Both the position numbers and the translations under genes were made by a program. Below, piece after piece: positions 1 through 30,317 of a stretch of DNA of 31,104 bases; within the stretch, counting starts at the first letter, position 1; each line of letters begins with the position of its first letter. The DNA is from a virus, in the IMG/VR virus record IMGVR_UViG_3300034374_008594, positions 1 to 31,104 of that record. One strand, 5' to 3'. A model generated the notes under the pieces. The model was given only the letters and a program-made list of their open reading frames with translations, did no database searches and had not been told where the DNA came from.

Positions 1-141
1 TTTCTTTGCCACCGAGTATCTCAACACTTTCATCCGTTCCTCGCCATCGGGAACGATTTGCACTGCGACATACATGTCAGGACCAGAGCGAGGGAATTGC
101 CCCTTCGCCTTCTGCGAGCGAATTTCTACATACGCTTTCAT
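1..141 (-). CDS. Conserved-looking hypothetical protein, 3' end cut by window edge
   Basis: An ATG on the minus strand at 141 is preceded by a clear GGAG ribosome site six bases upstream, and the frame stays open for 47 codons to the window edge. The visible N-terminus (MKAYVEIRSQKAKGQFPRSG, then a stretch with YVAVQIVPDGEERMKVL) looks like a compact beta-strand-rich domain. I do not recognise a named family. Its leader contains the same TTCTGTTTCTG pyrimidine tract found before the + strand genes of this module, so it probably belongs to the same unit and is expressed divergently from the gene at 433. No function is assigned. Confidence 0.6.
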   Translation of the reverse strand, partial: MKAYVEIRSQKAKGQFPRSGPDMYVAVQIVPDGEERMKVLRYSVAKK

Positions 142-432
142 TGGAATCTCCAAGAACAGAAACAGAAACAGAACGCATAACTATACACATCGTTCTGCCT
201 GGGTCAATACGGTGTGTAGAGTTTTCTTGAATCGACCCTCTTTGCGCCTTTCGACCCGCAGAAATCGACCCTCTTTGCGATAAGTCATCCACTTTCCAGG
301 CCGGGCGAAAGCTATTTCGGTTTCCGGGGAATTTTTTTTCTGTGTGGGCTTGTTGCTCTCGTCTGCAATGCGATTGCGCCGAATGATGTGGGCAGTCTGT
401 TTTTTCTGTTTCTCTCTCTTGAGGTGTTTGTG
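142..432. promoter_or_regulatory. Divergent intergenic region with 17-bp direct repeats
   Basis: This 290-base gap separates the minus-strand gene at 141 from the + strand gene at 433. It holds two identical 17-base copies of AATCGACCCTCTTTGCG at 230-246 and 263-279, 33 bases apart, with a partial copy (TTTCGACCCGCA) between them. Repeats of this size and spacing, about three helical turns, in a divergent promoter region are typical of operators. No convincing -35/-10 pair was found, so the regulatory role is inferred. Confidence 0.4.
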
Positions 433-675
433 GTGACTGCTTACCGAGTCGAGATTGATTGTTTTGTTTTGTCCTGCTCCGGCGCTGACTGGTTGTCTGA
501 CTGCTCGCCCTGCGTCTGGGATGCTTGGTTTGCTGCGAACGGTGGCAATGAATCCATTGCGCGGAACGAATTGCGTGAGCTTGGTTACTTCTTCAAGCGT
601 ATCGGTGACGGTTCTGTCAAGCAGGCTGCGTGGGATGCGTTTGGCGTCGAGAGTTTGCGCCTGCTCGTTCGGTAG
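433..675 (+). CDS. Small hypothetical protein
   Basis: I place the start at the GTG at 433, six bases after GAGGTG at 421-426. That spacing matches the neighbouring genes, which all use a GAGGTG site. The 80-residue product begins VTAYRVEIDCFVLSCSG and has a WLSDCSPCVWDAWFAANGG segment followed by a helical, charged C-terminal half (NELRELGYFFKRIGDGSVK). A GTG at 430 is the alternative start. No family is recognised. It is the first of a run of small + strand genes (433, 712, 1064, 1156, 1971) that share the same leader pattern. Confidence 0.5.
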   Translation: MTAYRVEIDCFVLSCSGADWLSDCSPCVWDAWFAANGGNESIARNELRELGYFFKRIGDGSVKQAAWDAFGVESLRLLVR

Positions 676-711
676 TTGTTTTCTGTTTCTCCTTCTTTGT
701 GAGGTGTTTTG

Positions 712-1029
712 ATGTCAAGTTTTGAATCTCTCGTTGGTGCGGCGCTGCTCGGTGGTGATCGCGATTTGGAGCTGTGCCGAATCGCTGTGAAGTCTGCGGT
801 GGTGTCTCGCATCTCCTGCCGTTGTGGTTCTGTCCTGGATCAATCAACTGCGGCGCTTCTGCACGTTGGGCCGATCTCCGGTGACGGTCCAGCAGTAGCG
901 GTTCTTTGCCCTGACTGCCTGGAGGCGTGCGGCGACGAGTGCCTGATTACTGCCTCTGATCGGGCGCGGGCTGATCACGGCGCCGGGTTGTTCGTGGTCG
1001 ATTGGTCCGGCCAACGTGAGATTGGCTGA
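712..1029 (+). CDS. Small Cys-containing hypothetical protein, possible zinc ribbon
   Basis: The ATG at 712 follows GAGGTG (701-706) by five bases, and a pyrimidine-rich leader precedes it. The 105-residue product carries CRCGS near residue 37 and CPDCLEACGDEC near residue 68. These paired cysteines could bind one zinc ion as a ribbon. No catalytic motif is seen. Zinc-ribbon proteins of this size in phages are often DNA-binding or accessory factors, but nothing here fixes a role. It ends about 35 bases before the next gene's start. Confidence 0.55.
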   Translation: MSSFESLVGAALLGGDRDLELCRIAVKSAVVSRISCRCGSVLDQSTAALLHVGPISGDGPAVAVLCPDCLEACGDECLITASDRARADHGAGLFVVDWSGQREIG

Positions 1030-1063
1030 TTCTGTTTCTGTTTCTGTTTTGGAGGTGTTTGTT

Positions 1064-1159
1064 ATGGGTACTGATTGGGTGTATGCGGCTTTCTTGGTCG
1101 TGTTGTCTGCGTGGTGCGTCTGCTTTGTTGGTTTCGTTTGCTGGGGGGCGCGCCGATGA
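1064..1159 (+). CDS. 31-residue membrane peptide
   Basis: This short ORF has the best ribosome site of the module (GGAGGTG at 1051-1057, six bases before ATG 1064). It encodes 31 residues that are almost entirely hydrophobic (VYAAFLVVLSAWCVCFVGFV) and end in CWGARR. This is one predicted transmembrane helix with a positive, probably cytoplasmic, C-terminus. Its TGA overlaps the ATG of the next gene in an ATGA junction at 1156-1159, so the two are probably translationally coupled. Function unknown. Confidence 0.55.
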   Translation: MGTDWVYAAFLVVLSAWCVCFVGFVCWGARR

Positions 1160-1893
1160 TTGCTTTGCCTCAGGTCGTGGACGTTGCGCACAAGTCCAAT
1201 AAAAAGATGGCGCCGGGTGCGTTTTGCGTGTCGTTCGGCGAATCCGGCGGCGCGTTGTGTGACGACGACTGCAAGCATAAGCGCGGATCGTGCTATTGGA
1301 TGCGGTTACAAGTCGGGCGTCCGACAACTCGTTCTGCAATGGCGCGGCTCGAATCGCTCGGTGGTTTGCGCGTCGTTCGCGCTGCGATTGCGACAATGCC
1401 TCGCCGGTTCGCCTGGATGCGGTGGTCTGTTTCTGCTGGTGTTCCGATGCCTGAGCATTTCGGGAATCGCGCTGACTGGCGGGCGTTCCGGCGTGAGTTC
1501 CGGCGCGCTAACCAGCAGGCGATAGAATCCGGCGCCGATGTCCACCTACCGACTGAATCGGCGCGCAAAGCTCGAATCCTGCGGCGCATGCTTTCGGGGC
1601 TAGGTGTAGTTGTGCGGCGTTCGGTCCAATCTGCTCGCGTGTCCGATCTACTGCGGGCAAAGGATCACCGCGCGTTCACTGTTTACGCTCCTGGCCATCG
1701 TGTGACGGCGGGGCCAGTCGGCAAGCTGCAAAAACGAGCCAACATCGAAGCGGCGCATGATCTGGCGCGTGAAGTCCGCGCTGCTGGCTCTTCGTGCGTG
1801 GTCTGTCCGTTCTCGTCTTCGGGGCGCCTTTGCGGTGATTGTCGGGCGTGTGCGTCTGATCGTGTCGATGTCGTTTTGTTTCCTGGTTCCTGA
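1156..1893 (+). CDS. Gp88/DUF7227-like cysteine-rich protein
   Basis: The start at ATG 1156 is set by the ATGA overlap with the upstream membrane peptide; a longer reading of this frame would overlap that gene almost completely. The 245-residue product has an N-terminal cysteine cluster (CDDDCKHKRGSCYW, about residues 34-47) and a C-terminal one (CVVCPFSSSGRLCGDCRACA, about residues 210-230) ending near VVLFPGS. From memory, this architecture resembles the Gp88/DUF7227 family of phage and plasmid proteins, which carry similar end clusters and have no agreed biochemical role. The middle is rich in Arg and Ala. Family assignment is by motif pattern only and is moderate. Confidence 0.5.
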   Translation: MIALPQVVDVAHKSNKKMAPGAFCVSFGESGGALCDDDCKHKRGSCYWMRLQVGRPTTRSAMARLESLGGLRVVRAAIATMPRRFAWMRWSVSAGVPMPEHFGNRADWRAFRREFRRANQQAIESGADVHLPTESARKARILRRMLSGLGVVVRRSVQSARVSDLLRAKDHRAFTVYAPGHRVTAGPVGKLQKRANIEAAHDLAREVRAAGSSCVVCPFSSSGRLCGDCRACASDRVDVVLFPGS

Positions 1894-1917
1894 TTCTGAT
1901 TCTGATTCTGTTTCTGT

Positions 1918-1955
1918 CCGGCGCCGGTCGATCCGGCGCCGGGTTTCTCTTTTTT
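1918..1955 (+). terminator. Rho-independent terminator after 1156-1893
   Basis: A perfect 10-bp stem (CCGGCGCCGG at 1918-1927 and 1933-1942) closes a five-base TCGAT loop and is followed by the T-rich run TTTCTCTTTTTT. It lies 24 bases after the stop of the Gp88-like gene. Each arm is itself the self-complementary GGCGCC core, so the structure is symmetrical. Confidence 0.75.
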
Positions 1956-1970
1956 GTGTGAGGTGGTTTG

Positions 1971-2387
1971 ATGGGTTGGTTTTATCCTTCTGACGTTGGA
2001 AGTCGTCGGGAGTTGCTCGATATGCTGTCTTCGGATTCTGCGGCGTTCGTGAGGTCGCGTCGGTACTGCTGCGGGAACGTCCTTTGGATCCTTTGGGAAC
2101 CTGTCGGCGCTGCGGCGCCGGTGTCTGATCCTTGGATCGGTTGTTATCTGCTGCGGCGTGACGGGGGCAGGTGGGGTTACAAGGCGTTGTGTGAGGAATC
2201 CGGACCGTTCTATTGGTCTTGCCCTCCGTCTTTCTTGGAAGCGGCGCCGGTCGTCAATGCAGAATGGCGGGAAGGTGTGCGGCTCTATTGGAAGCGACGC
2301 GCAGCGAAGCGGGCGGAACGTGCGGCGCTGCGGCGTTCCTGGGGTGATCTTCCAAAGCGAGCTCCTCGGGGTTGGTCGTCTGTCTGA
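1971..2387 (+). CDS. DUF6927-like hypothetical protein
   Basis: The ATG at 1971 follows GAGGTG by five bases. The 138-residue protein starts MGWFYPSD and contains GNVLWILWEP, IGCYLLRRDGGRWGYKAL, GPFYWSCPPSFLEAAP and NAEWREGVRLYWKRRAAKR. This order (MGW start, NVLW.VWE, WGYK, GPYYYSCP.., AEWR) is what I remember from the DUF6927 family found in phages and plasmids, which has no known function. The C-terminus is strongly basic, suggesting nucleic-acid contact. A strong terminator follows 25 bases after the stop. Confidence 0.6.
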   Translation: MGWFYPSDVGSRRELLDMLSSDSAAFVRSRRYCCGNVLWILWEPVGAAAPVSDPWIGCYLLRRDGGRWGYKALCEESGPFYWSCPPSFLEAAPVVNAEWREGVRLYWKRRAAKRAERAALRRSWGDLPKRAPRGWSSV

Positions 2388-2411
2388 TCACCTCGATTCC
2401 AGCTGAATCAT

Positions 2412-2446
2412 CCCGGCGCCGGTCGATTCCGGCGCCGGGTTTTTTT
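2412..2446 (+). terminator. Strong rho-independent terminator
   Basis: A perfect 11-bp stem (CCCGGCGCCGG at 2412-2422 paired with 2429-2439) encloses the six-base loop TCGATT and runs into seven T residues. It ends the 1971-2387 gene. It is nearly the same hairpin as at 1918, suggesting a duplicated terminator cassette. Confidence 0.85.
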
Positions 2447-3251
2447 GTGCGCGGTCGTCTGATTCCAGGTCATCCCGGCGCCGGTCCGTTTGACCTGGTT
2501 ACCTACTTTTGACCTGGTTGTCCGCCTCGATTCATCCCGGTTTTTGCTGGGTTTCTGCGCCTCGTTAAATCAAGTTTGCGCGCGGCTTGTCATTTTGCTG
2601 ACAATTGGCGGCGGTTTCGGTTGTCGATTCGAGGTCGATTCGAGCTCGATTCAACCAGCGCTGTCCTGGTTGCTCGATTCCAGCTGAATCATCCGCCTCG
2701 ATTCCAGCTCGATCCATCCCGGCGCCGATCATCCCGGCGCCCATTGCTGCCAGTCCTAGCGCCTCGCCGGGGAGGCGCTGCGGTGTAGTGCGTGCCTATG
2801 GCGTGGCATGCGGTGGCGTATATGCTTTGACGCTTGGCTGAATCGTCGTGAATGTCAGCTAGCGGTCGGACTCGCGCCATGGTCTGGAACGTCGAAGCTC
2901 GTAAAAAGCTGGCTGAATCGTCGTTATCGGTGCGCCGGTCGGTTAGTCGATTGGAGCGGTTCGGGCGTCGATAGGGGGGGGGGTGGTCGGCCCCGGCGGC
3001 GACAAACAGTATATGTATATCCAACCCCGAGAACGCGACACACCCTGGGGCCAATTGACCTGATCAGGCTAGAGCGGCTCAGATCGCGTCCGGCGAGTTG
3101 CTGGTGTGATTAGCCGTATTTTCAGTTTAGTCGCGTTAGGCGGCGTGCTAGGGGCGTGTACGGCGGTTCAGTAGTGTACGGGCGGATACTTCCTGCCTGG
3201 GATCGTGGTGCTGATCGGCTCTAAAACCGGGGAACATATGGTAGTAGATAC
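2447..3251. other. Non-coding, repeat-mosaic spacer
   Basis: I see no convincing gene in these 800 bases: the open frames lack ribosome sites and read through repeats. It contains further GGCGCC palindromes (2477, 2721, 2736). A 22-base copy of the segment before the terminator (2392-2413) recurs at 2673-2694. A 15-base direct repeat TGGCTGAATCGTCGT occurs at 2835-2849 and 2910-2924, and a run of ten G lies at 2974-2983. The scrambled re-use of short blocks looks like recombination-generated non-coding DNA next to the iteron field. Confidence 0.5.
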
Positions 3252-3398
3252 GGTTTGTGGCGATGCCATATGGCAGTCGGAAAGTTGTCGGAAAGTTATC
3301 GGAAGGTTATCGGAAAGTTATCGGAAGGTTATCGGAAAGTTATCGGAAAGTTATCGGAAGGTTTGTGGCGATGCCATACGGTTTGTGGCAATGCCACA
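3252..3398. repeat. 19-bp repeats flanking an iteron array
   Basis: GGTTTGTGGCGATGCCATA is present exactly at 3252-3270 and 3360-3378, bracketing the 11-bp iterons. A third copy with two changes lies at 3380-3398, and a degenerate trace follows at about 3400. Each copy contains the interrupted palindrome TGGC-GAT-GCCA, so each could be a site for a dimeric protein. With the enclosed array this resembles a replication origin or a partition site; that role is inference. Confidence 0.6.
3284..3360. repeat. Seven 11-bp tandem iterons (GTTATCGGAAR)
   Basis: Seven head-to-tail 11-base units run from 3284 to 3360. The first is GTTGTCGGAAA and the other six are GTTATCGGAAA or GTTATCGGAAG; a partial unit precedes them. 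The 11-base period puts every copy on the same helix face, as in iterons bound by replication initiators or in ParB-type centromeres. The array translates as an 11-residue repeat in one frame, but that frame has no ribosome site and runs through other repeats, so I treat it as non-coding. No initiator gene is recognisable next to it. Confidence 0.65.
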
Positions 3399-3425
3399 GG
3401 GCTTGTGGCGGATATGGTTGCCGAG

Positions 3426-3579
3426 TCGGTTTTTATCGGCTTTTACGATTTGTCAGGTTTTGTCAGCTTTTCTCAACTTTTCTCAACTTTTCTCAACTCA
3501 AGTCGGTTTTTATCGGGTTTTATCGGGTTTTACGTTTTGTCAGGTTTTGTCAGGTTTTGTCAGGTTTTGTCAGGTTTTG
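3426..3579. repeat. Phased 10-bp T-rich repeats
   Basis: Three short repeat families are arranged in blocks with a period of about ten bases: TTTTCTCAAC (three copies, about 3468-3497), GTTTTATCGG (two or three copies, about 3505-3527) and TTTTGTCAGG (four copies plus a variant, about 3535-3583). The T runs recur once per helical turn, which should give intrinsically curved, easily melted DNA. TATCGG is shared with the 11-bp iterons. The layout of iterons beside phased T-rich DNA fits a replication origin with an unwinding element, although no origin protein is identified here. Confidence 0.55.
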
Positions 3580-3954
3580 TCATCTTTCGGGGAACCAGGG
3601 CTTTCGCTGGTGCATGGAGAGCTTTTTCCTGTCTTCCATCTCTGGGTCGTGCGTAGTACGGCTCACCTTGAGGGTGCGAGCGGATGCTTGATAGATCACT
3701 GACCCCTTGTGGAAGGTGATTTGTCTTCGGCTGTTTTTCACCTCAATGAGGATTTCCTGGTCGGTGACGATGAAGAACTCACTGACGTAGTGATTTGGGG
3801 TGGGCCATTGCTGCCATCGCCAGAGGATGACCTGGGAGAAGCGGATATTTCCTTGGGGATCGCAGACATGATTGATTTCTGCGACATCGACGAGCCGCCA
3901 ATGGCGGGTGTTTAATGGGCTGGTGAGCGAGAGGACCAGAGCGATAGCGAGCAT
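3580..3954 (-). CDS. Conserved hypothetical protein, planctomycete-type
   Basis: On the minus strand, ATG at 3954 is preceded by AAGGAGG six bases upstream, the strongest ribosome site in the area. The 124-residue product starts MLAIALVLSLTS, possibly a short signal or membrane segment, then reads VDVAEINHVCDPQGNIRFSQ, VILWRWQQWPTPNHYVSEFF, a central strand-rich part, and TTHDPEMEDRKKLSMHQR near the end. The pattern NH..D..G...F.QVI...W with a closing DPE..R resembles a hypothetical family I associate with planctomycete genomes and their phages. Function is unknown. The stop lies at the edge of the T-rich repeats. Confidence 0.65.
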   Translation of the reverse strand: MLAIALVLSLTSPLNTRHWRLVDVAEINHVCDPQGNIRFSQVILWRWQQWPTPNHYVSEFFIVTDQEILIEVKNSRRQITFHKGSVIYQASARTLKVSRTTHDPEMEDRKKLSMHQRKPWFPER

Positions 3955-4016
3955 GGCAAACCTCCTTGTGCCATCTCGGTTTTCGCTTATTGGAGGAAGA
4001 CCGTAAAGTTTTAGGG

Positions 4017-4124
4017 ATGAACCCTCAGAAGATTGACCGGCTGATCTACTACTGCGCCGCCATCGTCGTTTGGCTGGTGATTTTCGATTCTCTGATCAAG
4101 ATGGTCTTGCGATTGGATGCGTGA
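4017..4124 (+). CDS. Possible 35-residue membrane peptide
   Basis: This short frame encodes MNPQKIDRLIYYCAAIVVWL followed by VIFDSLIKMVLRLDA, one clear hydrophobic helix flanked by charged residues. The only strong ribosome-like sequence (GGAGG at about 3992) is too far upstream, and AGGG directly abuts the ATG, so translation is uncertain. A good terminator at 4170 sits 45 bases downstream and would suit a gene here. It is divergent from the gene at 3954. Confidence 0.35.
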   Translation: MNPQKIDRLIYYCAAIVVWLVIFDSLIKMVLRLDA

Positions 4125-4169
4125 TCAGGCATACTTTGTTGGTCACACTCCAAAGTGACAGAAACAGAG

Positions 4170-4204
4170 CCTCTCGGCTGCTTCGGCGGTCGGGAGGTTT
4201 TTTT
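4170..4204 (+). terminator. Rho-independent terminator with TTCG tetraloop
   Basis: A 12-bp stem (4170-4181 with 4186-4197, including three G-U pairs) is capped by a TTCG tetraloop and followed by seven T. UUCG loops are unusually stable in RNA. It probably ends transcription of the short ORF at 4017. Confidence 0.8.
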
Positions 4205-4323
4205 GTGGAAGTTCTATCGAAAGTCGCGAGAGACTATTGCCGATTTAACGCACTATTATAGGGGCGGGGTATTTGATAGCCACATGACCGGACGTGTCAC
4301 TGCGTTCACTATCCTGCCTATTC

Positions 4324-4378
4324 GTCAGCCGGTACAGTGAAAGCGGCTGACCCTGATGCGAGTGCGAGTCGCATCAGG
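4324..4378. promoter_or_regulatory. Two adjacent perfect inverted repeats upstream of the excisionase-like gene
   Basis: GTCAGCCG (4324-4331) pairs with CGGCTGAC (4344-4351). Immediately after, CCTGATGCGA (4352-4361) pairs with TCGCATCAGG (4369-4378). The spacer loops are 12 and 7 bases, and neither hairpin is followed by a T run, so these are not terminators. They lie about 95 bases before the HTH/integrase operon and could be operators or arm-type recombinase sites. The rest of 4205-4472 shows no gene. Confidence 0.5.
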
Positions 4379-4472
4379 ATCACTTACACACTCACTCCAA
4401 TGGGATGGAGCGGATGCGCAAGCTCGCCGTGTATTGCTATGTATCTCCTTCGTCCATTGGGAAGGAGAGAGC

Positions 4473-4730
4473 ATGGAAAAGTCTGTAGAAGATTCGATCA
4501 CATACACGCTGGATGGACTGGCCGATGCCTTGGGGTTTCGGCAGACGCGCACGTTGGAGCGATTGCTGATTGAGATCGAGTGTCCGATTCGTAATTTCGG
4601 GCGAAAGAAGCTCGTATCTGGAAAACAGTTCCGGCTCGCGATTGAGAGAACATCGTGTTCACCAACATCAGGCGCTGGACGCTCGTCCGTCGCAAAGGGG
4701 CAAAGATATATCAGGTCCGTTACTTCCTGA
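4473..4730 (+). CDS. Excisionase-like helix-turn-helix protein
   Basis: The start at ATG 4473 has a good site (AAGGAG). The 85-residue product has a helix-turn-helix region (YTLDGLADALGFRQTRTLER, about residues 10-30) followed by CPIRNFGRKKLVSGKQFRLA. This matches the usual pattern of small excisionase/MerR-type DNA-binding proteins, in which an HTH is followed by a wing containing a conserved R.GRRRL..G. The last 76 bases overlap the integrase start in another frame, so the two are probably co-expressed. The Ser/Gly-rich tail is dictated by that overlap. The likely role is directionality factor or repressor for the integrase; the exact role is inferred. Confidence 0.6.
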   Translation: MEKSVEDSITYTLDGLADALGFRQTRTLERLLIEIECPIRNFGRKKLVSGKQFRLAIERTSCSPTSGAGRSSVAKGQRYIRSVTS

Positions 4731-5776
4731 ATGACGGGTCTGTCAGAGAACGCACCACCAAAGAAACGGTGCGAAGGCAAGCCGAGCGAAGGGCGATAGA
4801 GATCCTTCGTGAGGCGGATGAGTCTGGCTCTTTTGAAATCTATGGATGGGCAGAGTTTTGCGTCCGTTATGAGTCGGAGCAGCTTGCCGCCCGTCCCTTC
4901 AAAACGAGAGAGGCGTTTCGCACAGCGAGATCGAGGCTCGATCAGTTGTGTCCTGAGATTCGTTTTGTGTCTGACATCAGCGCAAAACTGCTGGTCGCCT
5001 TTGCCGTGAGACTTCGCCAGGAGGGCAAGAGTGAGGCGACGATCCAGGCGTATCGGAATCACCTGATGAGCGCGCTCAAGTGGGCGGAAGAGGTGGAGGT
5101 CATTAAGTGCCGTCCTAAGCCGCCTCGCTTGCTTCGGGTTCCGAGTGGATCGCGTGGACGGGCAGTGACTCGCGAGGAGTTTGAACGAATGATGGATCAG
5201 ATACCGGCGGTTGTTGGAAAAGAGTTTGAAAGCCGATGGCGATGGAACCTTGAGGCTCTTTGGTTGGGGGGCTTTCGTCTTGGCGAAACCTTTTCGATTT
5301 ACTGGGAGCAGTCGTATGAGGGGCATCATCTTGTCGATCTCGATTCTCCCAAGCCCAAGATTTCCATCAATCAAAATGCGGAAAAGGCATTTCGCAATCG
5401 CCTGCTGCCGATGCCAAGGGATCTTGCGGATCACTTTCGCAGCGTTCCAGCCAATCGACGAAATGGTCTGGTCTTTAAGTGGCCGATGAGCCGGGGCTAC
5501 TCCACCAGCAAGAGAACGGTTGGATGCCGAATCAGTGAACTTGGGAAGCTCGCCAACGTAAAAGTGGGTCAGAAAAAGTATGCCTCCTGCCATGACATCC
5601 GCCGATCATTCGGAAGTCGTTGGTCGATGCTGGTACAGCCGTTTGTACTTCGCACCTTAATGAGACATAGCAGTATCAGTACTACAGAGAGGTACTACGT
5701 CACAATTGAGTCTGATCGGATTGCCGATCAAATCGCAAAAGCGGAGGACACGGGACTCGAACCCGCAGCCCCGTAA
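4655..5776 (+). CDS. int: Tyrosine recombinase / phage integrase
   Basis: This is a 373-residue site-specific recombinase of the tyrosine (XerC/D, lambda Int) superfamily. It has an N-terminal DNA-binding part with a core-binding helix bundle (about residues 60-150) and a catalytic domain (170-350). Catalytic residues are visible: R208 in WLGGFRLGE, H313 and R316 in CHDIRR, H338 in LMRHSS, and the nucleophile Y347 in TTERYY. The start is a GTG inside the upstream HTH gene, with GAGAGA before it. The last 11 codons (AEDTGLEPAAP plus stop) are read from the complement of a tRNA-Ser, so the enzyme's C-terminus is encoded by the probable attachment site. A minus-strand frame across the whole gene is a shadow. 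Confidence 0.93.
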   Translation: MFTNIRRWTLVRRKGAKIYQVRYFLNDGSVRERTTKETVRRQAERRAIEILREADESGSFEIYGWAEFCVRYESEQLAARPFKTREAFRTARSRLDQLCPEIRFVSDISAKLLVAFAVRLRQEGKSEATIQAYRNHLMSALKWAEEVEVIKCRPKPPRLLRVPSGSRGRAVTREEFERMMDQIPAVVGKEFESRWRWNLEALWLGGFRLGETFSIYWEQSYEGHHLVDLDSPKPKISINQNAEKAFRNRLLPMPRDLADHFRSVPANRRNGLVFKWPMSRGYSTSKRTVGCRISELGKLANVKVGQKKYASCHDIRRSFGSRWSMLVQPFVLRTLMRHSSISTTERYYVTIESDRIADQIAKAEDTGLEPAAP

Positions 5777-5824
5777 GGGGTACCCCAGTTCCAGTGGGGC
5801 CGCTCACCAATTCGCTTATCCTCC
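5742..5824 (-). tRNA. tRNA-Ser (anticodon GGA)
   Basis: On the minus strand a complete 83-base serine tRNA folds: acceptor GGAGGAT with GTCCTCC, a short D arm with GGT in the loop, an anticodon stem CCCCA/TGGGG around the loop CTGGAAC (anticodon GGA, preceded by the required T33), a long class II variable arm (CCCC TTAC GGGG), and a T arm with TTCGAGT. The discriminator base is G, as expected for serine. CCA is not encoded. Its 3' 35 bases overlap the integrase 3' end. tRNA-Ser genes are common phage integration targets, so this is the likely att site. Confidence 0.93.
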
Positions 5825-21678: not shown

Positions 21679-23733
21679 ATGGATGGGTACGATCAGCCAA
21701 CCGGAAAGCAGAAGTATCCGCTTCAACCGATTGTGAGCCGTTGGAAACGAGTGTTTGCCTCTGCGCGTAAAGAGCGAAAAAAGAAGTTCGACGTTTATGC
21801 GGACGAGGCAATGGAGTTCTTTGACGGTCCAATCAATCACATGTGGTCGTCGATGCGTTCCCAGATGCGTGGTGGCGGTGATCACGATGGTTTTCTAGCT
21901 CCCGATGTTCAACTGCCTCAATTTGAAATGAGCGTGAATCGCTTGTTTGAAGCGGTCGCCATCTTTGGGCCGGTTCTGTACCACCAAAATCCGGTGATTG
22001 CAGTAACTCCACGGAGCAATCCCGAAATCAGCATTGACACATTTTACGCTGGCAACATGGAAGCAACTCAGTTGCTGGCAATGACCCAGGCTGTTGAGCA
22101 GGGCGTTGTGACCGATCCATATATCGTTCAGTCAGTGCAGGCTCTCTATCAGCAATATGCTCAGTCTGTGCAGATGGACGAGAAAGCGAGTGTGATTGAC
22201 CGGGACCATGCCAAGATTCTTGAGTCTTTAAGCAACTACATCCAGCAAGAGGGCAGCAAGCAGGACGAAGCTAGGCTTGCCATCACCGAGGCAATCATCA
22301 CTGGACTTGGCTTGATGGAGGTGAAGGTAGAGCAACCGCCGGGAGGCGGTCCCAAGATGGCACGCAGTCGCTATCGCTCGAATAAGGACTTGCTGGTCGA
22401 TCCAGACGCAAAATACTGGCGTGATGTGACTTGGATTGCTCTTCGTCAGTGTGAGCCGGTCCATCAGGTGGAGGAGAAATTTGGATTGCCCAAGGGTTCG
22501 CTCAAAGGCAAGTACGCACGAATGGCAGCGACGGATAGTGCGAGTGGTCGCAAACGCAACGGCGATGGCACTTACGCTGGCGTGACGCATGATCTGATTG
22601 AGTATTACGATGTGTACTCAAAAGCTGGTGCAGGGCAAAACCTCAAACTTCAAGAGAAGGACAGTAAGGTCAAAGGGCTGGAAATGCTTGGAGACTTTGT
22701 TCATCTCGCAATATGCGAGCAGTGTCCTTACCCCTTAAATCTTTCTCCACAGGTTCTCGAAACAAACGATCTCGATTTCGTTTTGCAGCAGACCTCCTGG
22801 GAAGTGCCTTTCTGGGATGATGTGAATAGTGATGGTGGTTGGCCTATCTGCCGACTCAGCTTCTACGACAAACCAGGAGAAGTGTGGCCGATCTCGATGG
22901 TCAAGCCGTGCATCGGATTGCTCAAGTTCGTGAATTGGACGATGAGCTTTATTGCCGACAAGGTCGCATCGGGATCAAAGATTTATGTCGGCGTACTCAA
23001 AGAGGCTGGTGAAAACATCCGCCAGCAGTTGACGGGAGGCAAAGGACCATTCAGCGTCATTGATCTGGAAAGAATATCTGGCAAGAGCCTGAATGAGACA
23101 ATTTCGTTTTTGCAGGCTCCAAACTTCTCTATAGATATTTGGTCCATGACTGCCCAGGCAAACGAGCAAATCGACAAAGCCCTCGGCCTCACTGAACTAA
23201 TGTACGGAATGTCGGGTCGTCAGATGCGTTCGGCTGCGGAGGCTCAGTATCGCCAGCAGAACATCAACGTGCGCCCTGACGACATGGCATCGCGTGTCGA
23301 AGACTGGTTGTCGCTTTCTGCGACTAGGGAAATTCAAGCGATGCGTTACACGGCTAATTTTGACGACCTTGCTCCGGTGGTTGGGCAAACGGCGGCGAGA
23401 GTGTTTGAAGAGCAGATATTGACGACGGAAGTTAGCCGCATCACCAGAGACTTTCGGTACAGAGTAGAGGCTGGCACTGCTCGCAAGCCAAACCGTGATA
23501 CTCAGATTGCTCAATTGACTGACATCGGCCAGTACATCCTGCCGGTCATTCAGCAAGCGATGATGTCAGGCGTTACTCGCCCATACAACGCATACATGAA
23601 GGCGATGGGCCGCGCAATGGACATGGAAGTTGGTCAGTTTTTGCTTGGGCAAGATGAGCAGCAGTTGCTAATTCAAATGAATGCGCCGCCCCAACCGGCA
23701 GAAGAACCCCAATCAGAGGAATTGCAAGAGTGA
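21679..23733 (+). CDS. Portal protein
   Basis: A 684-residue protein with a basic N-terminus, GPINHMWSSMRSQMR, the stretch FEMSVNRLFEAVAIFGPVLY, an alternating helical middle, and GLTELMYGMSGRQMRSAAEA leading to RQQNINVRPDD and a Gln/Pro-rich tail. Portal proteins of this size often show such R.A.EA.....N.R...... regions in the stem. It forms the dodecameric DNA channel at one capsid vertex. RBS TAGGAATT precedes ATG 21679. It overlaps the following gene by four bases. Confidence 0.85.
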   Translation: MDGYDQPTGKQKYPLQPIVSRWKRVFASARKERKKKFDVYADEAMEFFDGPINHMWSSMRSQMRGGGDHDGFLAPDVQLPQFEMSVNRLFEAVAIFGPVLYHQNPVIAVTPRSNPEISIDTFYAGNMEATQLLAMTQAVEQGVVTDPYIVQSVQALYQQYAQSVQMDEKASVIDRDHAKILESLSNYIQQEGSKQDEARLAITEAIITGLGLMEVKVEQPPGGGPKMARSRYRSNKDLLVDPDAKYWRDVTWIALRQCEPVHQVEEKFGLPKGSLKGKYARMAATDSASGRKRNGDGTYAGVTHDLIEYYDVYSKAGAGQNLKLQEKDSKVKGLEMLGDFVHLAICEQCPYPLNLSPQVLETNDLDFVLQQTSWEVPFWDDVNSDGGWPICRLSFYDKPGEVWPISMVKPCIGLLKFVNWTMSFIADKVASGSKIYVGVLKEAGENIRQQLTGGKGPFSVIDLERISGKSLNETISFLQAPNFSIDIWSMTAQANEQIDKALGLTELMYGMSGRQMRSAAEAQYRQQNINVRPDDMASRVEDWLSLSATREIQAMRYTANFDDLAPVVGQTAARVFEEQILTTEVSRITRDFRYRVEAGTARKPNRDTQIAQLTDIGQYILPVIQQAMMSGVTRPYNAYMKAMGRAMDMEVGQFLLGQDEQQLLIQMNAPPQPAEEPQSEELQE

Positions 23734-24725: not shown

Positions 24726-24759
24726 CAAAAGAGGCGACTCGCTAGTTAGCGGGAATATC

Positions 24760-25476
24760 ATGAGATTCATCAACTTACTAATCCTTTCTCTTTCATCGGC
24801 TTGTTGCTTCGGGCAGCTTGCGGTGACGAGCGAAAAGGCGACACGATTACTGGGAGTAGAGTCATCCCAGACAATCGGTGATGTCGTTTTGGTTGACCCA
24901 GATGCCAACATAAAGATGATCCCTGTCGTGATCATCAATGCGGACACTGACGCTTCAAATGTCTCATTCGAGGCAAGCGACATCAATCGCATCCCTGTTG
25001 ACTTCATTCCGCTTGATGGCAAAAGCATCTTGGTATCAGCAGCGGGAAAGACATGGGTTGATGTAAACGTAATTGACTTTGAGAAACAAATTTATGCTCG
25101 CACAACTGTAGTTGTGGAAGTTGGTGAATCTCCTCCAGATCCCACACCTCCTGGGCCGGAACCGCCAGGACCAACTCCTCCTGACCCAGAGGGTCTATTT
25201 GACGGGCTGGCCGCAAGGGTTGCACTTGCATCTGCTGGCGTCAGTGACAGCGTGAAGTCAGAGATTGCATCGGTCCTCAAGGATGCGGCTCGCAAGATGT
25301 CTGAGTATGACTTCCGCACCTTCCTCGATGTAAGGGATTACATTGCTGACAATTGGCCGGATGATGAGTCGGCGCGGTCGCTTTATAAGTTGCTGGCTGA
25401 TGACAGCGGCAACAGGATTCTAAGTTGGCAGCAGGCCCAGCAGTATTACCTAGAGATTGTGAAGGGGTTGCAGTAA
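24760..25476 (+). CDS. Secreted protein with proline-rich linker
   Basis: ATG 24760 follows GGGAA. The 238-residue product begins with a signal peptide (MRFINLLILSLSSACCFGQ). A lipobox is possible at the paired cysteines, but the -3 residue is not the usual Leu. A beta-rich domain (residues 20-120) follows, then a Pro-rich linker (about residues 125-143, repeating PPDP/PPGP), then a helical C-terminal domain (LAARVALASAGVSDSVKSEI). Exported phage proteins of this build could act at the envelope during lysis or superinfection exclusion; function unproven. It overlaps the protease gene by one base. Confidence 0.65.
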   Translation: MRFINLLILSLSSACCFGQLAVTSEKATRLLGVESSQTIGDVVLVDPDANIKMIPVVIINADTDASNVSFEASDINRIPVDFIPLDGKSILVSAAGKTWVDVNVIDFEKQIYARTTVVVEVGESPPDPTPPGPEPPGPTPPDPEGLFDGLAARVALASAGVSDSVKSEIASVLKDAARKMSEYDFRTFLDVRDYIADNWPDDESARSLYKLLADDSGNRILSWQQAQQYYLEIVKGLQ

Positions 25477-26480
25477 TGGACGATTTAGCATCCCAGTTGC
25501 CAGGGCAGCAAGGCTGGCTAGGTGACTTAGACATGGAGCATCGAGTCTTCGATGCACTTGGCAATGACTCACCAGAGATTGTTGCACGGCACAGTGCCAA
25601 GAAAGTGCTGAATCAGAAACTGCTTGATGAGATAAAAGAGATCCAGAAAGCGAACGGCATCGACGATGGGTTCTCGTTTCTGCATATGTGTGAGGCGATC
25701 TTTGGCGAGCAACTGCCCTGGAAAAAGCAACTCATTGGGTCATGCGTTGCATCGTCGGCAATGCGAACCTTTTCTTACCGATCACTTGCAGAGGTGTTCC
25801 TGCTGAATGACCCTGAGCGGATCAACGGATCTGGGATTGTCGGAAAGGAAGACAACCTCGCAGTCTTCGCTCCGTACTCATACAGGGCTGGCAGAAGACG
25901 AGGCAATCTCAACGGTGGAGATGGATCATTTTGCAGCGTGCAAATTGCTGGTCAGATTCACGATGGAGTGTTGATGTGCAATTCTGGCGTAGAGTCAGAC
26001 GCTTATCCTGAGCCACAGTCAACACGGTTGTACCGGCAGTGGGGGAACAGCAACTCCCTGATGGACAAGTGGAAAAGCAAAGCACAAGAGATCAAGCAAG
26101 TAGAGACAGAGGAAGTAAAAACGATTGACGATGTGAAGGAGTTGATTGTCAATCACCACAAGCCTCTTAACATCTGCTCAAACTGGGGCTTTGCTCCAAG
26201 CCACAAGCATCCTTCGTGGGAGCTTGCTGACGGTAGCCCTGTTTATGTCTACCGGCGATCAGGCAGTTGGGCGCACGCAATGGCCCTTGTAGCGATGGTT
26301 TCTCACAACGGCGAATGGTTCGTCATTGTTGAAAATAGTTGGGGAAGGAATGCCCACAAGAATGGGCGTTGGTTTGTGATACCAGCGTCTTTGGCGGCAA
26401 CGTGGTTGCGGTCGGCAAGTTGCTATTCAGTAGGTGAGATTGACTTGCCAGATAACGGTCCACTTTTCAAACCCATGTAG
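25476..26480 (+). CDS. Papain-like (C1 family) cysteine protease
   Basis: The 334-residue protein has the C1-type triad: QLIGSCVASSAM with Q85 and C90, SWAHAMALVAM with H267, and ENSWGRN with N287. A ~85-residue N-terminal part could be a propeptide. There is no signal peptide. Peptidase C1 domains are rare in tailed phages. It could process virion or spike proteins, act on the host envelope together with the secreted neighbours, or block host defence. The distance between C90 and H267 is long but normal for the family. ATG 25476 overlaps the upstream stop by one base. Confidence 0.8.
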   Translation: MDDLASQLPGQQGWLGDLDMEHRVFDALGNDSPEIVARHSAKKVLNQKLLDEIKEIQKANGIDDGFSFLHMCEAIFGEQLPWKKQLIGSCVASSAMRTFSYRSLAEVFLLNDPERINGSGIVGKEDNLAVFAPYSYRAGRRRGNLNGGDGSFCSVQIAGQIHDGVLMCNSGVESDAYPEPQSTRLYRQWGNSNSLMDKWKSKAQEIKQVETEEVKTIDDVKELIVNHHKPLNICSNWGFAPSHKHPSWELADGSPVYVYRRSGSWAHAMALVAMVSHNGEWFVIVENSWGRNAHKNGRWFVIPASLAATWLRSASCYSVGEIDLPDNGPLFKPM

Positions 26481-26488
26481 GTAGGTAA

Positions 26489-26809
26489 ATGGCACATTGC
26501 AATTTTCAACCGGAGTTACAACTCGGTTGTGTGAAGGAAATCATTGACATTGTTCGCAGTGGCGAGCTTGATCGCGAGAAGTCTCTGGAAGTCGTTGAGC
26601 ATGTTGCTTGCTTCCTTGGGAGCGGCGCGGCAATGCTCAAAGGTGACGGGCCAGAAGTCTTCGGAAGTTTGCCAAGCGATGTGGCTGATGAGCTTGAGTC
26701 TCTGATCCCTGACGAGGGAGAGCCGGTCGCGCAGGCAATTCCTTGGATTTCGATTGCTCGACTGCTGCTTCCATTACTGATCGACGTTTTGAGCAAGGAA
26801 GAAAAATGA
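26489..26809 (+). CDS. Hypothetical protein with C-terminal hydrophobic helix
   Basis: ATG 26489 follows GTAGGTAGG. The 106-residue product is acidic with a helical core (VKEIIDIVRSGELDREKSLE) and a hydrophobic C-terminal segment (IPWISIARLLLPLLIDVLSK). That end could be a tail anchor. No family is recognised. It overlaps the next gene in an ATGA junction. Confidence 0.55.
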   Translation: MAHCNFQPELQLGCVKEIIDIVRSGELDREKSLEVVEHVACFLGSGAAMLKGDGPEVFGSLPSDVADELESLIPDEGEPVAQAIPWISIARLLLPLLIDVLSKEEK

Positions 26810-27087
26810 GAAAGTTAATCATGGTGGTCGCAGCAGTGGTTGTGTTTCTGGGCAGTAGCTCTATGGCTCTTCCTGAAACTGCTGACGCTGGTTGTTTTCG
26901 TCGCGTACTACGCAGAGCATTTGTTCCGGCGCGTCGCGTCATTCGTCGAGTGAACCCTGTCAGTTGCAGTAGCCAGCAGGACAGCGTTGCGAGTGAGGTA
27001 GTCGTAGAGCAACAGGGTTATCCGATCCGGCCTTTGGCTGGTCGCCCCCTGCGTGTTCTGCGCTGCGTCAACGGACAGTGCAATTAG
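26806..27087 (+). CDS. Small exported basic protein
   Basis: The 93-residue product starts with a signal peptide (MRKLIMVVAAVVVFLGSSS, cleavage probably near ALPETADA) and continues GCFRRVLRRAFVPARRVIRR, a Cys/Arg-rich region, ending LRVLRCVNGQCN. Four cysteines after the signal could form disulfides. AAGGA lies seven bases before ATG 26806. It may act outside the membrane with the protease neighbours. Confidence 0.6.
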   Translation: MRKLIMVVAAVVVFLGSSSMALPETADAGCFRRVLRRAFVPARRVIRRVNPVSCSSQQDSVASEVVVEQQGYPIRPLAGRPLRVLRCVNGQCN

Positions 27088-27097
27088 TGAGTTAGTG

Positions 27098-27169
27098 ATG
27101 GTGGCGTTGATGTTCAGTTTTCTGAGCATCGCGCTGCTTTTAATTATTGAATTTGGGGATGGAGGGTGA
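27098..27169 (+). CDS. 23-residue membrane peptide
   Basis: ATG 27098 encodes MVALMFSFLSIALLLIIEFG plus DGG, essentially one transmembrane helix. The upstream ribosome site is poor. Its stop coincides with GTG 27166, a possible start of the next gene. Tiny membrane peptides next to lysis-like genes could be holin or antiholin components; this is inference. Confidence 0.3.
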   Translation: MVALMFSFLSIALLLIIEFGDGG

Positions 27170-27174
27170 AACGG

Positions 27175-27411
27175 ATGTCTGCACCAGATCCAACAACTAT
27201 CGGAATGCTTGTCTCCGCAATCGGTGGAATGGGTGGCGTGATTGGAATCCTGTGGAAACAGGTGCAAGGTCACTTTGCGGACATCGAACGAAAACTCGAT
27301 CTTAGCGAACAGAGATACATGGACTGTGAGCAGGACCGTCTAAGGATATGGCAGAAACTTGCAGAGCAGGCAGGCAAAGACGTACAAGACCTCAAAGGTG
27401 ACGCGAAATGA
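27175..27411 (+). CDS. Small membrane/coiled-coil protein, possibly lysis-related
   Basis: ATG 27175 follows GGAGGG by eight bases; GTG 27166 is an alternative that adds three residues. The 78-residue product has an N-terminal glycine-rich hydrophobic helix (TIGMLVSAIGGMGGVIGILW) and then a coiled coil (HFADIERKLDLSEQRYMDCE). A membrane helix with a following coiled coil is common in phage holin- or spanin-associated proteins. It overlaps the next gene by four bases. Confidence 0.5.
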   Translation: MSAPDPTTIGMLVSAIGGMGGVIGILWKQVQGHFADIERKLDLSEQRYMDCEQDRLRIWQKLAEQAGKDVQDLKGDAK

Positions 27412-28070: not shown

Positions 28071-29198
28071 ATGGCAACTGTTCATTACTACGTTGACCCA
28101 GTAAATGGTTCCGATGGAAACGCAGGCACAAGCGATGCTACGGCATGGCAGACGATCAACTATGCGATTACCAATACTGCGGGAACGTCAACGCAGATCA
28201 CGCAAGTTAATCTAAAGTCCAACGGAACTCATACGCTAACGGCTACCGCTGCTCTGTCTGGTGGTGGGAATCTCGGGGCGCACGTTTTGCGAGGGTACAG
28301 TTCAGTAGCGGGAGATGGTGGCATTGCAACGATTGATTGTGACGCCCTGTATGGCATCTCAATGCTTGATTACAGTGCCGCTGCCGACCTCTACATGATT
28401 AACCGAGGGACTGGGAGCTTCCTCGTCGGTGCTTATTCTGATAAAGAAATTCGAGTATTCAACTGTGGTTTTAACGGAGCCACCGGGAACGCGATTGACT
28501 TTAGTAATAACGCTAGCTATGCGGTTGAGCGGTGCTACTTCACTAACGTAAGCATAACTGTACAGACAGACGCTGGCATAGAGACAACAGTGAGCAGGTG
28601 CTTCGCCCAAGACGGCGATACAACTCAGTTCACCACTAGTGCGTTTTCCTCTCAGATGAATCTGATAGGAAACATGGCTTACGTTACTGGTACGAGAAGT
28701 GGGCTAACTACAATTTACAATGGATCAAAGAAAATAACAAGAAACAACAGCGTGTTTTCGGACGGAGGGACTGGAACAGGAATAAATCAAGCAGGCAACT
28801 CAACTGCGGCTCAGATCACGGCAAACAACGCAGTCGAGGGTTTCTCTGGTGCGGGTGGTCACGGAATGTCTCAAAATGTTTCCAACTTCAGACTGCATCA
28901 GAACATAAACAATGTCGTTTACGGCAATCATACAGACTACGACACTGGCGTTGAGACAAACAACTTATGGATGGAAGCACCCAAGGTAGCAACCGGCAAC
29001 TTGTTTCAAGGCGGAACGCTACCATCACCGGCATTGTTTGCCAGCGACAATGCTCAGTTTTGGCAAACGGTCCACAACTTCTTTCGCCCGACCGACGCAC
29101 TAATCGCCCAAGAAGATTCGACAGGTGTAGTCGCCGGTGCAGTGCCAGCTAGTGCGTCAACCGTCAGTCCCTCACGCCACCCACTAGCGAGGTTTTAA
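28071..29198 (+). CDS. Right-handed beta-helix tail spike-like protein 1
   Basis: The 375-residue protein begins MATVHYYVDPVNGSDGNAGT and continues with short repeating strands rich in Asn, Gly, Thr and Ser (IRVFNCGFNGATGNAIDFSN, YAVERCYFTNVSITVQTDAG), the signature of a parallel right-handed beta helix as in pectate lyase or phage spike proteins. It shares GYSSVAGDGGIA, a closing SDNA.FW..V..F.P segment and a C-terminal HPLA with the next protein. No catalytic residues are obvious. It likely binds or cleaves host surface glycans. Confidence 0.7.
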   Translation: MATVHYYVDPVNGSDGNAGTSDATAWQTINYAITNTAGTSTQITQVNLKSNGTHTLTATAALSGGGNLGAHVLRGYSSVAGDGGIATIDCDALYGISMLDYSAAADLYMINRGTGSFLVGAYSDKEIRVFNCGFNGATGNAIDFSNNASYAVERCYFTNVSITVQTDAGIETTVSRCFAQDGDTTQFTTSAFSSQMNLIGNMAYVTGTRSGLTTIYNGSKKITRNNSVFSDGGTGTGINQAGNSTAAQITANNAVEGFSGAGGHGMSQNVSNFRLHQNINNVVYGNHTDYDTGVETNNLWMEAPKVATGNLFQGGTLPSPALFASDNAQFWQTVHNFFRPTDALIAQEDSTGVVAGAVPASASTVSPSRHPLARF

Positions 29199-29201
29199 GA
29201 T

Positions 29202-30317
29202 ATGACAATGACAGAAAACTACGTCGATCCTTCTATTGCTGGCAACAGCGGTACAGGGACGATTGTTGATCCATACGGCGACCTTCAGTACGCACTGGAT
29301 AACATTCCTCGTGATACTATTGATGGCGATAGGATCAACATTAAAGCGGGAACGGAGGAAGTGTTTGCCAGTGCAATTAGTTACGCAACTTATGGCACCC
29401 CTACCTACGACGCCCCACTGATATACCAAGGATATTCTTCTGTCGCTGGCGATGGCGGAATCGCTGAAATTGATCTTGGCGGGAACGCATTGGCGGGGGA
29501 TTTTGTCAATTATGCCGACCTTAAGGTGCGGAGCGCCGGAAGCGGTATTTCCGGATTTGATATTGGTTATGCAACCGCGACGAATGTATGGTTTAGCGAC
29601 ACTGGTGCTACCCTTGGCTTCGTTCTGTCCGAATGCTCATTGTATAGGTGCGTATTCAGTGACTTTCCTACGGGTACATATGCATTGTATCCAGCTGGGG
29701 ACTCTCATGTGATTGGATGTTATTTTGAGATGGATTCGCGTCCGGTAGCAGGGTCGTGCATTTTCTCTGCTGGAGCGTGCGTGACTTCTTACAATTGCTT
29801 TAAGGTAGGAGGTGGAGCCACCGTTATTGATCAATATGATGACTCTCACGTTTCGTCCCATAACTCAATTCTCCGAACGGGAGCAAATGCTGGTATTGGC
29901 ATCAAGTTCCGAAATGGGTCAAAAGCGCAACGGTGTACTGGGAATATTGTTGAGGGATTTGCGACAGGCTATCAATGGGGAACCCAAGCCACGCCTCCGG
30001 GGGCAGCACATGAAAATGCTGCATACAACAATACGACCGAGTACGACTCGACATTTATCAATCCTTACTACAGAGACAATGAGACGCTTTCTGCATCTGC
30101 GTTTGCAAAGTCAGGCACGATTACCCTGAGCGACTTTGTTTCCGACAATGCAGGCTTTTGGGCATCGGTCGCTGCTTACTTTGAGCCACAGGACACTGGC
30201 AATGTGTTTGGCAACTTCGGTTTTCACGCCCTGACCAAAGGTGCAGTACCTCGCCCAGCCGGTACTGGTGCCGGCGGCGGAACAACATACTCACTACATC
30301 CATTAGCGTACAACTAA
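29202..30317 (+). CDS. Right-handed beta-helix tail spike-like protein 2
   Basis: The 371-residue protein has the same architecture as its neighbour: an N-terminal ENYVDPSIAGNSGTGTIVDP block, GYSSVAGDGGIAEIDLGGN, repeating short strands (VWFSDTGATLGFVLSECSLY, RCVFSDFPTGTYALYPAGDS), then SDNAGFWASVAAYFEP and HPLAYN at the end. It starts four bases after its paralogue, so the two arose by tandem duplication and diverged in the helix coils, as expected for two host-receptor specificities. Confidence 0.7.
   Translation: MTMTENYVDPSIAGNSGTGTIVDPYGDLQYALDNIPRDTIDGDRINIKAGTEEVFASAISYATYGTPTYDAPLIYQGYSSVAGDGGIAEIDLGGNALAGDFVNYADLKVRSAGSGISGFDIGYATATNVWFSDTGATLGFVLSECSLYRCVFSDFPTGTYALYPAGDSHVIGCYFEMDSRPVAGSCIFSAGACVTSYNCFKVGGGATVIDQYDDSHVSSHNSILRTGANAGIGIKFRNGSKAQRCTGNIVEGFATGYQWGTQATPPGAAHENAAYNNTTEYDSTFINPYYRDNETLSASAFAKSGTITLSDFVSDNAGFWASVAAYFEPQDTGNVFGNFGFHALTKGAVPRPAGTGAGGGTTYSLHPLAYN

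Follow-up and report, generated by a model that had tools for sequence, protein, structure and literature searches.

This study identified, in a partial virus record of 31,104 bp (hereafter the window, meaning the whole stretch of DNA analysed), an exchangeable gene cassette at positions 24,760 to 27,174 of the + strand, in which a papain-family protease is encoded among exported-type and membrane proteins. The unit is probably an envelope-directed protease module, as suggested by the exported and membrane neighbours that recur around the protease in other phages, by versions of the protease that carry their own membrane anchor, and by the exchange of different protease cassettes at one genomic site.

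Papain-family membership and extent of the subfamily

Judged by its alignment and predicted fold, the 334-aa product of positions 25,476 to 26,480 (+ strand) is a genuine papain-family (C1) protease. The preliminary description had read it as a C1-type protease with a full C-H-N triad, and this was borne out, as the tetrad Q85, C90, H267 and N287 is invariant in 29 of 29 aligned family members, together with the SWG that follows N287. The Pfam matches of the window protein were sub-threshold (PF00112, E=0.18; PF03051, E=0.1), with a PF00112 score of 12.3 bits against a curated cut-off of 20.7, and a PHROGs search gave no match. PF00112 was matched by five of the 29 family members at E<0.01 (best 1.1e-7), and no Pfam family other than papain was matched by the protease or its family, which display one C1 domain. 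A search of the PDB with the 29-member profile retrieved xylellain at E=5e-8, as well as plant and animal papains. The structure prediction that the preliminary description had proposed as a check returned a papain fold, the AF2 model from the family alignment having a pTM of 0.82; a first model, based on a poor alignment with the papains of relatives, was discarded (pLDDT 34). With the AF2 model, Foldseek retrieved cathepsins B and S and xylellain at E of about 5e-7 and probability 1.00, with TM-scores of up to about 0.66 by target length at about 15% identity, along with C1 peptidases of uncultured phages.

The enzyme thus belongs to a known class, peptidase family C1 (papain; PF00112; xylellain, PDB 3ois), with which it has the Q-C-H-N residues, the predicted papain fold and a significant profile match in common. 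It differs from that family in being phage-borne, in not reaching the Pfam cut-off when searched as a single sequence, in its large insertions, in having no recognisable inhibitory prodomain and in being set in an island of membrane and export genes.

With reference to the extent of the subfamily, a degenerate DNA query for the His-to-Asn signature was run on viral contigs and returned at least 120 stretches. The window protein matched 54 of the first 80 ORFs extracted from these stretches; over all fetched ORFs, 64 other viral loci matched it at E<1e-3 (best 1.4e-11), and the 29-member profile found 119 of the at least 120 signature loci. Loci fetched with an unrelated PhoH motif included none that matched the window protease or the profile, indicating that the 64 matches are more than chance. 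A tblastn search of about 50,000 phage records gave no match for the window protease, for four other members of its type (type B) or for the second papain type described below, and tblastn against phage records and plasmids was likewise without a match. As far as these comparisons indicate, the window protease is a member of a large, mostly unrecognised phage subfamily. Papains with a long intein-like insertion starting at the catalytic Cys were also observed in L077, L117, L124, L135 and L312 (6259-8199), that of L135 ending in ISHN immediately ahead of the catalytic CVSH; these insertions are likely inteins, and conserved active sites are favoured by inteins.

Since the window protease has no signal sequence, it would need a pore or a partner to leave the cytoplasm. 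The same property, which most family members display, would suit an intracellular takeover or counter-defence role, in which cytoplasmic host proteins are the targets of the papain and its membrane neighbours are functionally unrelated. We consider this role unlikely, because the membrane and exported neighbours are consistent, 20 of 74 proteases of the subfamily carry their own N-terminal hydrophobic segment, and the gene lies in a late operon in the window.

Gene content of the cassette

On the + strand of the window, scaffold-like, major capsid-like, decoration-like and terminase genes are followed by the portal gene (21,679 to 23,733), a 183-aa protein, two small basic proteins, the six ORFs of the cassette region, a 219-aa protein and two tail-spike-like proteins, the structural names being our interpretation of the sequences. 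This gene order agrees with the flanks given in the preliminary description, namely portal and basic proteins to the left and tail-spike-like proteins to the right. The ORFs between 24,760 and 27,411 are tightly packed on one strand with stop/start overlaps as in an operon (TAATG at 25,474; ATGA at 26,806 and 27,408). The tail-spike-like proteins of the window (28,071 to 30,317) and of L005, L012 and L020 differ, yet share a C-terminal motif containing HPL (SRHPLARF, LHPLAYN, VHPLYAN), which perhaps serves all of them as a tag for attachment or processing.

The first gene (24,760 to 25,476, + strand) encodes a putatively exported protein of 238 aa with a hydrophobic N-terminus, a beta-rich part, a Pro-rich linker and a helical C-terminal part. 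It matched a gene located two places upstream of the papain in L085 (phmmer E=1.2e-4, 47,485 ORFs), and the same architecture occurs directly upstream of the papain in L076 and, less similar, in L118 and L133. Homology of its helical domain to the partner family of the large phages was also considered, and the comparison gave no support. Downstream of the protease, positions 26,489 to 26,809 (+ strand) encode a 106-aa protein with a hydrophobic C-terminal segment, a holin candidate by position only, and positions 26,806 to 27,087 (+ strand) a 93-aa exported-type, Arg-rich protein with four Cys, which reads TADAGC and, by eye, has no typical lipobox. Neither protein has a homologue in the fetched loci; an exported basic protein likewise follows the papain in L010, L012, L038 and G044. 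The signal-peptide protein with a Pro-rich linker, the hydrophobic-tail protein and the exported Cys/Arg protein of the preliminary description were therefore all recovered as such.

Two other genes named there fared differently. The 23-codon hydrophobic ORF (27,098 to 27,169, + strand), presented as a membrane peptide, is doubtful: it sits in an 87-nt gap that is missing in L038, where a TAATG junction is found, and it had no convincing match in the fetched loci. The gene for a protein with one TM segment and a coiled coil is present as described, at 27,175 to 27,411 (+ strand), and is better regarded as a lineage core gene adjoining the cassette than as part of it, since relatives retain it regardless of the cassette they carry (phmmer E values as low as 6e-39). 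Its start is most likely the ATG at 27,175 and not the GTG at 27,166 that had been assigned, because a Shine-Dalgarno-like GGAGGG lies upstream, relatives start there, and DNA homology returns at this point.

Exchange of protease cassettes at one site

Relatives of the window phage were obtained by portal searches, which returned 22 and then 49 viral loci. The blastn homology between the window and these relatives stops at 24,755 (L008), about 5 bp before 24,760, and is back at 27,175 (L038), both boundaries lying within a few bases of start codons, with another protease cassette between the same flanks in the relatives. The cassette has thus been exchanged cleanly, as a unit. Close relatives with 73-81% portal identity harbor another papain in the same slot wherever the slot is sequenced far enough. 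Their slot begins with a protein of about 93-109 aa with a hydrophobic segment, a two-TM protein and an anchored domain of about 150 aa, which is fused to the preceding protein in L005 and L007; these are followed by a papain of a second type (244-258 aa) and by a peptide, exported or anchored, whose end is usually basic; the TM/coiled-coil gene known from the window closes the series. The second papain type passed PF00112 in G005 (E=1e-7), matches plant papains and has an invariant catalytic tetrad in 11 of 11 sequences. Direct comparison between the window protein and this papain was weak (10%), and the homology of the two types was seen only at profile level, with the 29-member profile (95.8%, E=8e-9). 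In the distant relatives L050, L051, L052 and L061 (52-55%), an exported protease with Pro-rich and collagen-like tails, trypsin-like by our interpretation of the sequences, occupies the slot, and in L055 (42%) no protease was found at it. Read from these gene orders, a single site exchanges cassettes that carry either of the two papain types, A or B, or, in the distant relatives, the exported trypsin-like protease.

A thermonuclease-like gene, named by sequence interpretation, adjoins the protease slot in distant portal relatives (L050:12007+1146..1583) and in G044 (L314:6763-7176, - strand). The 63,415-bp G004 (L031-L034) has a portal region near each end, the two being different, and is either an assembly chimera or two joined related phages.

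Gene neighbourhood in other phages

In other phages, the type-B protease is surrounded by recurrent small co-directional genes, including those of a small 'SEFW/RRFW' membrane protein, a helical protein of about 130 aa and a one-TM protein. An anchored protein with a helical domain lies immediately upstream of the protease, and exported Cys proteins, some with a thioredoxin motif (WCGPC in L065, WCPPC in L085), lie downstream together with TM proteins. A hydrophobic N-terminus was observed in 37 of 48 (77%) genes at the -1 position and in 55-66% of those at positions -2 and +1 to +4, as against 7% of 250 distant genes located more than six places from the protease. These loci are partly related to one another; when each 60%-identity cluster contributed one locus, the proportions were 13/18 for -1 genes and 5/66 for distant genes, and under the strictest clustering (45%, 11 loci) 9/26 near genes and 2/39 far genes had such an N-terminus (p=0.005). 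A CxxGxC motif, considered as a mark of the exported neighbours, was dropped as it showed no clear enrichment (14/178 versus 19/385).

The order seen in L085 is repeated in L312, with a trypsin-like protein, a linker protein, a membrane protein, the papain and a thioredoxin-like protein, and the two linker proteins are 61% identical. In the 38-kb G044, a lipoprotein-like Cys protein and an exported Arg-rich protein come after the papain. The large phage G012 (L183-L189; 123,592 bp) also carries a papain module, and the 25 listed of its 87 Pfam families include those of an S8 subtilase and of a DNA polymerase III alpha.

The context of the module varies, being inside the structural operon in the window, beside fibre-like genes in the large phages and at a late/early boundary in G044, where the papain is on the strand opposite the structural genes. 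This bears on a virion-associated or capsid-maturation protease, which the slot between the portal region and the tail-spike genes in the window lineage would suit. We regard such a role as the least probable of those considered, and the occurrence of the module in different genome contexts disfavours the virion maturation unit that the preliminary description had offered. No stable linkage or co-evolution with portal, scaffold and capsid genes, as would mark a prohead maturation protease, was found, and an exported protease occupies the slot in distant relatives. Moreover, identity in the portal region stays at about 70-80% even though the protease has given way to a very different one, which is hard to reconcile with an enzyme that has specific cleavage sites in the capsid.

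A possible role in lysis

For the envelope-directed module, the leading role, at slightly less than even confidence, is that of a late-acting lysis system or of a part of one. This role fits best because an enzyme, small membrane proteins and an exported basic peptide are combined in a late operon, and because the module has fibre-like neighbours in the large phages. In such a system, the protease would travel to the host envelope together with its exported and membrane partners. There, the small membrane proteins would serve to open the inner membrane or disturb its order, and the protease, which is soluble in the window and anchored in other members of the subfamily, would have envelope proteins or wall peptides as its substrates. 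Anchoring or restraining the protease may fall to the exported linker protein, and the exported basic peptide could help to breach the outer membrane.

The preliminary description had proposed a proteolytic lysis module suited to planctomycete envelopes. The envelope-directed part of that proposal gains from the exported and membrane neighbours and the anchored versions; the lysis part is plausible, with no firm holin or spanin found and an argument from a missing endolysin that fails against controls. No peptidoglycan hydrolase was recognisable in the window, as had been stated, or in Pfam scans of G005 and G044, and the complete Pfam list of the near-complete G044 includes no known endolysin. 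In the papain-set contigs, lysozyme, Amidase_2 and SLT domains were found in 0/40 and M23 in none over the cut-off, and among 40 size-matched control contigs chosen by the PhoH motif, lysozyme was found in 2/40 and Amidase_2 in 0/40; M15_3 was found in 0/25 of both sets. Such absence being common in control viral contigs, it says little about lysis, and the lack of an endolysin domain was dropped as evidence for proteolytic lysis, since the size-matched controls were without such domains nearly as often. Planctomycetes, in addition, have peptidoglycan (PMC4432640, PMC4432595), so a purely proteolytic attack on the wall is not required by such a host.

Within the module, no holin, spanin or endolysin was confidently identified, and no cognate spanin pair was found; several small TM proteins are present, of which the best holin-like PHROG match, for one neighbour family, had E=0.022, and the layout of the TM/coiled-coil protein is similar to that of an inner-membrane spanin. 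In G005, a giant protein of 3,628 aa matched an 'endolysin' PHROG in part, over 58 aa. Giant proteins of 2.0-3.6 kaa occur at the end of the structural region (L025:6853-17736, - strand; L032 and L033 of G004; L315:47-5983), and the giant protein of G044 harbors an ART-PolyVal domain (E=1e-10).

The nearest precedent is found in the papain-family domains of mycobacteriophage lysins, where Lysin A, a multidomain endolysin, may contain an N5 (papain/C39-like) or N4 (NlpC/P60-like) cysteine peptidase domain (PMC3314691). Both are phage-encoded domains of the papain superfamily, and that of Lysin A is assigned to lysis; Lysin A, however, has other catalytic and cell-wall-binding domains, whereas the window protease is a single C1 domain closer to cathepsins, in which no wall-binding domain was recognised. 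The holin-endolysin-spanin cassettes of Gram-negative phages and the disruptin of phage phiKT (described in PMC12819732) resemble the module in that one late cluster unites an enzyme, small membrane proteins and a protein that is exported or basic; the module differs in being without a recognisable peptidoglycan hydrolase and in offering only putative counterparts of holin, spanin and disruptin. Lacking such a hydrolase, it is not classed as a lysis cassette, and may still work like one. A parallel of another kind is given by the baculovirus cathepsin V-CATH, a virus-borne papain-type protease tied to host release. V-CATH differs in belonging to a eukaryotic virus and acting on animal tissue, and its match, to a fragment, is a weak one at fold level (E=0.004).

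A wider reading, put forward tentatively and with clearly less confidence than the lysis role itself, is that phages of host groups from which no phage has been cultured may share a widespread system for lysis or envelope breach that had gone unrecognised, and that in it a swappable papain-type or trypsin-type protease with exported partners takes the place of the usual peptidoglycan hydrolase.

Lifestyle of the phage and an accessory role

The integrase gene of the window (4655-5824) has its 3' end inside a tRNA-Ser(GGA) gene on the other strand, an att-like arrangement suggesting that the phage is probably temperate. A search for a prophage or host in a genome collection, by portal profile and tRNA-Ser pattern, returned nothing. 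The region from 1 to 4600 is unlike the rest of the window (GC 0.56, AT skew -0.37 to -0.27, short tandem repeats at 3277-3582), and is perhaps host DNA or another element.

The probably temperate nature of the phage would suit an envelope-acting accessory ('moron') unit that does not serve lysis, its protease and exported partners remodelling or stripping host surface proteins for purposes such as excluding superinfecting phages, hindering competitors or altering the lysogen. The hydrophobic N-termini of the neighbours fit this role as they do the lysis role, and the swapping of cassettes as accessory units is in line with it. So are L085 and L312, in which the partners include exported thioredoxin and trypsin-like proteins. 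It is nevertheless rather improbable, though less so than either the intracellular or the virion role, because the module is embedded in a late structural operon with overlapping genes, and because some protease cassette occupies the slot of every sequenced close relative, a constancy greater than expected of an optional gene. The lysis role stays the leading one for the envelope-directed module.

Significance

Through this analysis, no fewer than 119 of the environmental viral loci fetched can be assigned to a single enzyme family, which is open to experimental test and had no match among about 50,000 phage records. The module also points to a way in which phages whose bacterial hosts are poorly cultured may get through the cell envelope. 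If the protease remodels the surface of a lysogen, phage proteases that act on the envelope would form a large class that has so far escaped notice. If it replaces a wall hydrolase, the module would lyse bacteria by an unusual route and would offer new antibacterial enzymes.
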